From: Armatimonas rosea
GTDB lineage: Bacteria; Armatimonadota; Armatimonadia; Armatimonadales; Armatimonadaceae
Reading direction: 5' to 3'
NCBI RefSeq assembly: GCF_014202505.1
Contig: NZ_JACHGW010000002.1
Coordinates: forward strand, 1,116,001-1,180,000
Length of the DNA stretch: 64,000 nucleotides
A program made the position numbers and the translations under genes. The notes under the pieces were generated by a model that saw only the letters and a program-made list of their open reading frames with translations, made no database searches and was not told the origin of the DNA. Below, one piece after another: positions 25,603-26,650 of this stretch. How positions within the stretch are numbered: position 1 is the stretch's first letter; each line of letters begins with the position of its first letter.

Positions 25603-26650
25603 GGATTGCCCCAGACAGCTCCCGGTAGCGGCGCTCGTCGCCGTGGACCGTGAAGGCGAGCTCGATAGCTGCACCGTGCGGGGTCGGGTGCGCGACTTCG
25701 AGGCTCAGGCTTGCGGTGCGGCCTTCGAGGGTGCTTTGGAGGCGCTCGTAGGTCGCGGTGAGGGTGGACCAGGAGCACTTGATTCGGACAAAATCCGCAA
25801 AGGTCTCGGGGTGCGCGTTGGCGCTCCACAGGTCGCTCTTCTGGCGGCTCTCCAGCCAGCGCTCACCGTCGTCGGGATCGCCCGCGACCCCGCCCAGCTG
25901 CTGGCACACCGCATAGGCGAGCTGAAAGTGCCCGGTCTGTACTAGCTCATCGCCCTCAAAGGCAAGCACCACGCGCATTCCCCCTTTCCCAGCGAGGGAC
26001 GAGCGTCCGGGAGAGGGGGCAGGGGGAGAGGTTATCCGCCCTAGCGCCGGGCGGGCATCGCAGCGGTGGATCAGGCGCAGGGCATCGCAGGCATCGGTGA
26101 GGTCATCGAAGTCGAAGACCGCCCAGGCACGCGCCTCGGGCTGCGGGTGCATCTTGAGGGTCGCCGCGAGCGTGATTCCCCCGATGGTTTCCTGCGCCAG
26201 GACGCATTCTCGAAAGCTGCCGTAGCGTCCGGAGAAGAGCCCGTAGGCATCCGTGGCGATACACCCCCCGACAGTCGCCAGGTTCGCGCTCCCCAGCACT
26301 TGACCAAGCGTGTAGCCATGGCGCGCGAGCTGCTCCTCCATGCTACCGATCGTCACCCCCGCGCCTACGGTCACGGTCAGGTCGGCCTCGCTCCAGGTCA
26401 GCTCGGTCAGGCCCGCCGTGTCGAGAGCGATATCGACCGGGAGCTGCTCCTGTGTCCCGCTCCCACCCCCCACAGCACGAATCGTCTTGCCCTGGGCCTG
26501 CGCCCACGCCACCAAGGCCGCGGCTTCGTCCGTGCTGGCCGGCAACGCGACCGCATCGCAGAGAACTGGGCGGGTCTTGAGGTGTGGCGGGAACCAGGAG
26601 CGCGAGGCGCTCTGGCGGGAGTCGAGGTCGGTGAGAAGCTCAGGAGTCAC
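25592..26650 (-). CDS. FAD-binding oxidoreductase, GlcE-like, with a repeat-encoded insert
   Basis: A 352-residue FAD-binding type 4 (VAO family) protein resembling the GlcE subunit of glycolate oxidase: FAD site motifs RAVGGGSGTQ (about residues 58-67), TVGAGVTIGSMEEQLARHG and SANLATVGGCIATDAYGLFSGRYGS. A family E repeat is translated in frame as residues 207-224 (SPPAPSPGRSSLAGKGG), joining the FAD domain to the C-terminal domain. It starts with GTG, 7 nt after a TACAAC box. The GlcD and GlcF partners are not in this window. Confidence 0.82.
   Translation of the reverse strand: MTPELLTDLDSRQSASRSWFPPHLKTRPVLCDAVALPASTDEAAALVAWAQAQGKTIRAVGGGSGTQEQLPVDIALDTAGLTELTWSEADLTVTVGAGVTIGSMEEQLARHGYTLGQVLGSANLATVGGCIATDAYGLFSGRYGSFRECVLAQETIGGITLAATLKMHPQPEARAWAVFDFDDLTDACDALRLIHRCDARPALGRITSPPAPSPGRSSLAGKGGMRVVLAFEGDELVQTGHFQLAYAVCQQLGGVAGDPDDGERWLESRQKSDLWSANAHPETFADFVRIKCSWSTLTATYERLQSTLEGRTASLSLEVAHPTPHGAAIELAFTVHGDERRYRELSGAILSA
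25981..26033. repeat. Repeat family E copy inside the GlcE-like gene
   Basis: The plus-strand sequence begins CCCCTTTCCCAGCGAGGGAC and ends GGGGGAGAGGTTA, closely matching 19,371-19,422. It is in frame on the minus strand and introduces no stop. Confidence 0.78.

Follow-up and report, generated by a model that had tools for sequence, protein, structure and literature searches.

The oxidase gene and its palindromic insert

The window, a stretch of 64,000 nucleotides of Armatimonas rosea, contains on its minus strand the gene of an FAD-linked oxidase with a palindromic repeat inside its reading frame (Table 1). FAD_binding_4 was the only Pfam domain found in this protein, and its nearest solved structures were alkyl-DHAP synthases; it is related to the alkyl-DHAP synthase/GlcD-GlcE superfamily. 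A first-pass annotation of the window had described it as a GlcE-like oxidase. Given these matches the FAD oxidase part of that name holds, whereas 'GlcE' is loose. The orthologue of the congener is 73% identical in an alignment over 350 residues. Both proteins are without the GSEGTLGI-type FAD loop, which is present in more distant relatives, and judged by its sequence the enzyme may be unusual.

Table 1. Positions of the oxidase gene, of the repeat inside it and of further copies of the repeat family in the window.
Feature	Position	Strand	Remarks
FAD-linked oxidase gene, host of the insert	25592..26650	-	352 aa; FAD_binding_4, nearest structures, congener orthologue
Hairpin core of the oxidase repeat, single arm, 38 nt	25981..26018	-	CCCCTCTCCC-GGACGCTCGTCCCTCGCT-GGGAAAGGGG
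5' tail of the oxidase repeat, TAACCTCTCCCCCTGC	26019..26034	-	Common to family copies
Probable intrinsic terminator, a single copy whose stem is perfect and followed by a T-run	13506..13564	+	Directly past a plus-strand gene
Single copy, CTTTT after the stem	18495..18546	+	Overlaps a minus-strand gene at its called start
Single copy at the 3' end of the minus-strand gene 19362-21203	19370..19424	-	95-96% identical to the oxidase copy
Short divergent copy with long loop module	20661..20724	.	In frame in ORF 19362-21203 (-), peptide LSPLPPGYPLGAGEGLGERL

The repeat comprises 54 bp (25981-26034) and reads on the gene strand as TAACCTCTCCCCCTGC followed by the 38-nt hairpin, with its tail, TAACCTCTCC..., terminating at 26034. 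As the first-pass annotation had stated, it lies within the open frame and is translated as exactly the peptide quoted there, SPPAPSPGRSSLAGKGG (wider context ITSPPAPSPGRSSLAGKGGM). The copy keeps the C.A mismatch that is usual in its family (GGGAAAGGGG), and GGAATG comes next. In the AlphaFold model of the oxidase, a moderate one with a mean pLDDT of 77.6, residues 208-224 lie between the strands 203-207 and 225-233, and pLDDT is below 50 at residues 213-222. The insert is predicted to sit in a loop, with a low model confidence as in disordered loops.

The congener used for comparison is represented by one MAG, Armatimonadetes bacterium LacPavin_0818_WC50_MAG_59_12. When the two oxidases were aligned, the proteins showed a single gap of 15 residues exactly at the repeat, and the genes a 45-nt difference that starts directly after a common ATAAC. 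The congener reads RIT-APQ-RV and the oxidase of the window RIT-SPPAPSPGRSSLAGKGGM-RV. The edges of the insertion are not clean, as the three congener codons for APQ have no counterpart, and for this reason an element of 53-54 bp adds only 45 nt net. Since the congener orthologue is free of the insert, the repeat is, as judged from the alignments, a lineage-specific in-frame insertion of net 45 nt, or about 15 amino acids. The first-pass annotation had overlooked this, as well as the fact that the element is dispersed, REP-like and present in many genes. In other relatives the residues at this site are missing or form an unrelated loop, and loop length varies. A similarly long loop is present in more distant relatives, so that the repeat might conceivably have replaced an older loop.

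Between the oxidase and its congener orthologue, dN/dS (NG86) was 0.11 before the insert and 0.13 after it, both approximate values since dS is high and near saturation, and both averaging in time that precedes the insertion. The two parts of the gene that flank the insert thus appear to be under strong purifying selection.

A hairpin family dispersed in one genus

The host genome has a size of 6.3 Mb. A BLAST search with the oxidase repeat gave 56 matches in it, the best non-self match having 98% identity (E=6e-22), and a covariance model built from 28 arms gave 87, among them 44 with E<1e-4. The repeat therefore has matches far beyond chance. The copy in the oxidase is a single arm and is a 98% match to the arm of a doublet at locus L009. 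The family alignment contains 12 base pairs, with 99.2% of cells paired, and 25 double-sided changes compared to 5.4 in shuffles (0/500). All three inner-loop pairs covary (columns 15-27, 16-26 and 19-23; G-C, A-U and C-G). These compensatory base changes support the predicted hairpin. The C.A stem mismatch is found in nearly all copies, and in the alignment the pair is restored in the copy at 13506. The ORF 19362-21203 on the minus strand bears two members of the family, the divergent copy in frame at 20661-20724 and a second one at 19370-19424, where the ORF has its 3' end.

About 29 family matches were found in the congener, none in 10 other genomes (6 genera) of the same taxonomic family, and a few weak ones in 3 genomes of another family within the order. 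An exact pattern scan of the GTDB genomes, among which the source genome may be left out, matched the congener MAG alone. Rfam contains no family for the element, and plasmids gave no match to it. Judged by these searches, the repeat family is restricted to the genus.

Inverted doublets of about 115-160 bp were found at 22 of the 33 element loci, in the layout TAACCTCTCC - hairpin - spacer - hairpin - GGAGAGGTTA, and the aligned copies terminate in (T)AACCTCTCC and GGGG. As a single RNA strand, a doublet is predicted to fold back into a hairpin some 50 bp long (-90 to -101 kcal/mol). An identical loop in both arms was observed in 0/28 cases, with about 3 expected (P~0.03). This weakly suggests that the arms avoid having the same loop, and perfect long palindromes could be selected against. 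At L021, L013 and L032 the tail is duplicated in tandem at the element ends (TAACCTCTCC, ~5 nt, TAACCTCTCC). With respect to MITE features, the doublets have the ends TAACCTCTCC/GGAGAGGTTA, and no clear target-site duplication was seen at the sites compared. None of the Y1 transposase genes examined was flanked by the repeat family, and no REP-associated tyrosine transposase scored above the curated cut-off. By analogy, the repeat behaves like a miniature mobile element of the REP/REPIN type.

Copies within genes and the terminator question

The usual assumption is that repetitive extragenic palindromes avoid genes. The family described here is not extragenic, as 14 of its 33 element loci (about 40%) lie in frame inside genes. 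A locus was counted when it had no internal stop and when both of its sides reached a coding score of 20 or more in one common frame, gene context being given by a hexamer coding score trained on genome stretches, not by full annotation; under the same rule 362 of 600 random 130-bp spans of these loci were counted. The in-frame hosts include UvrA, PcrA, an NRPS adenylation domain, an MFS transporter, an FAD oxidoreductase, a serine dehydratase and several PSD1/PSCyt2 proteins. UvrA scores 1174 (curated cut-off 1147) and PcrA 946 (cut-off 911). Shorter and weaker matches were found inside Pnkp and a gene that we read from its sequence as an ABC-type permease. In the congener, the element is missing from the serine dehydratase (156 nt net) and from the FAD oxidoreductase, where adjacent residues differ too. 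Of the in-frame cases, 10 have kept their left tail intact, and in these the CCTCTCC tail is read in two phases and never in the one that reads TAA, and five further genes stop exactly at the TAA of the element (L009, L012, L024, L025 and L027). This is as expected if insertion ignores the frame and selection retains what is tolerable.

In UvrA, PcrA and one PSD1 gene, the element is found at the same place in both species with different inner modules. In the PSD1 gene, stems and tails are nearly identical between the species and the coding flank is ~93% identical, and both loops differ. This pattern may result from gene conversion between copies, from repeated insertion at a favoured place or from template switching. 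We regard it as rather doubtful that, across the genus, palindromic inserts keep their stems fixed while, at one and the same chromosomal site, their loops are exchanged for others out of a small set of modules. If such exchange were general, recombination or template switching would keep rewriting short peptide loops in conserved proteins. IspE (27832-28776) contains a palindromic repeat of another kind (GCCCCCCCCGCCCCCACAAGTGGGGGAGC; window 28309-28340 and ~28530-28560), which is likewise translated in frame. The IspE of the congener carries a different repeat-like peptide (PSPGPFPQGKEGE) at that site, and other genera have neither.

The first-pass annotation had regarded the oxidase copy as the same palindrome that looks like a terminator past other genes, and had named one copy as the true terminator. 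That terminator-like copy is real. It spans 13506-13557, with T6 at 13559-13564, and starts 13 bp past the end of a plus-strand gene. Its stem of 13 bp is fully paired (GGGAGAGGGG; -27.9 kcal/mol, z -4.5), and it probably ends transcription as an intrinsic terminator. However, the two copies are not equivalent, being ~83% identical and with a perfect stem and T-run only at 13506. A consensus terminator scan called neither of them; it does not discriminate, because its loops are limited to 3-8 nt.

The resemblance of the copy at 13506 to a genuine terminator is what speaks for an intrinsic terminator or attenuator also in the oxidase gene, which would lower or end its expression. We consider this highly improbable, since the oxidase copy has no T-run next to it on either strand, its stem is mismatched, it folds in its mRNA context no better than shuffles (z -0.96), and the part of the oxidase past the insert is conserved as much as the part before it. 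The missing T-run and the weak stem led us to reject the copy as a terminator candidate. Accordingly, the terminator-like character that the first-pass annotation had given it was not borne out, nor was the lowered expression suggested there. Read-through, which had been offered there as the alternative to lowered expression, is probable given the intact frame and the low dN/dS on either side. It had also been considered that the gene might be broken, in which case the insertion would have made a pseudogene that has stayed open by chance, owing to high G+C. Such openness costs little here, as two of the three element frames are stop-free, and the oxidase is without the usual FAD loop. That loop is missing in the congener as well, though, and its absence is thus not a consequence of the insert. 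Together with the purifying selection on both parts of the gene (0.11 and 0.13) and the frame kept at 13 other loci, including UvrA and PcrA above their curated family cut-offs, this makes a pseudogene very unlikely.

The encoded peptide could also have been adopted and put to use, acting for instance as a flexible linker or making the loop more diverse. As the repeats in UvrA, PcrA, PSD1 and IspE share their site in both species and differ in loop module or even in repeat family, a site can stay occupied while its peptide changes, which would fit such a role. For the oxidase we find it highly improbable, because the insert is missing in the congener, the model confidence of its loop is low, as in disordered loops, and there is no sign that its removal has a cost. 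Very probably, the oxidase copy is one arm of a genus-level dispersed, REP/REPIN-like hairpin repeat family that is tolerated as an in-frame insert. The copy would have been gained from a doublet arm in the lineage of the source genome. The frame would have survived because the element is stop-free in two of its three phases and natural selection purged insertions that break the frame. The peptide would be a tolerated passenger loop, and transcription and translation would traverse the copy. What we say of current mobility, the mobilising enzyme, oxidase expression and peptide function we infer.

Relation to known repeats and other repeats nearby

Intragenic REPs of the GTAG and CGTC superfamilies have already been reported, with REP ends that supply stop codons and with uvrA and UvrD/Rep helicase genes as recurrent hosts (PMC3733652). 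Like these REPs, the family described here consists of short stem-loops in many dispersed copies. The resemblance extends to short palindromes occurring as singles and inverted dimers, mostly intergenic and in some cases in frame in ORFs, to element ends that give stop codons, to replication and repair genes as hosts, and to related species in which one gene carries different REPs at roughly the same position, as in recB of Xanthomonas (PMC3733652). Unlike them, our family carries no GTAG or CGTC tag and has the conserved end TAACCTCTCC, which gives a TAA stop. Because tags and a linked RAYT are missing, we have not placed it in these superfamilies. GTAG repeats occur in Proteobacteria, Cyanobacteria, Chloroflexi and the PVC group, and the text of that study does not mention Armatimonadota (PMC3733652).

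The classic in-frame palindromes are the Rickettsia palindromic elements (RPEs; Ogata 2000, 2002, as cited in the review PMC10969869). In the account of that review, RPEs have inserted in frame into many genes that are unrelated to each other and probably still work (PMC10969869), and insertions of this type are seen here as element-free congener sites with purifying selection on both sides, function being judged by sequence. RPEs belong to another lineage, carry a CGTC end (PMC3733652) and are described as ~150 bp long, and the likeness drawn here is one of way of working. With the REPIN/RAYT system the family shares inverted doublets, in which a spacer that varies separates the hairpin units, and singles that resemble doublet remnants (PMC3116915). 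In contrast, REPINs have been described from extragenic space and beside RAYT genes (PMC3116915), whereas here 14/33 loci lie within genes and no linked RAYT was found. Dispersed intrinsic terminators are matched by the copy at 13506, with its stem and T-run after a gene, but not by the oxidase copy. By analogy, the family works like the GTAG/CGTC REPs and the RPEs, as protein-coding palindromic repeats.

The Armatimonadota family thus has ~40% of its loci in frame in genes, including those for nucleotide-excision repair and a helicase, the same kinds of host as for REPs of other phyla. It offers a further test case of how proteins tolerate translated mobile palindromes, and a warning that the kind of hairpin which in one place probably stops transcription can elsewhere be ordinary coding sequence.

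Long doublet repeats of another kind, CGGGGATTGGAAATCCCCGGC...GAGCGTCCCGAGGACGC, were found at window positions 29571, 41884, 43774 and 47337. Similar doublets lie on both sides of a Y1 (IS200-like) transposase gene at locus L089 (~2141-2599). We rejected this gene as the RAYT of the hairpin family, as its flanking doublets belong to another family and the score of its protein is that of an IS200 transposase. Since the doublets flank it on both sides, the CGGGGATTGGAAATCCCCGGC...GAGCGTCCCGAGGACGC family may have its own mobiliser.
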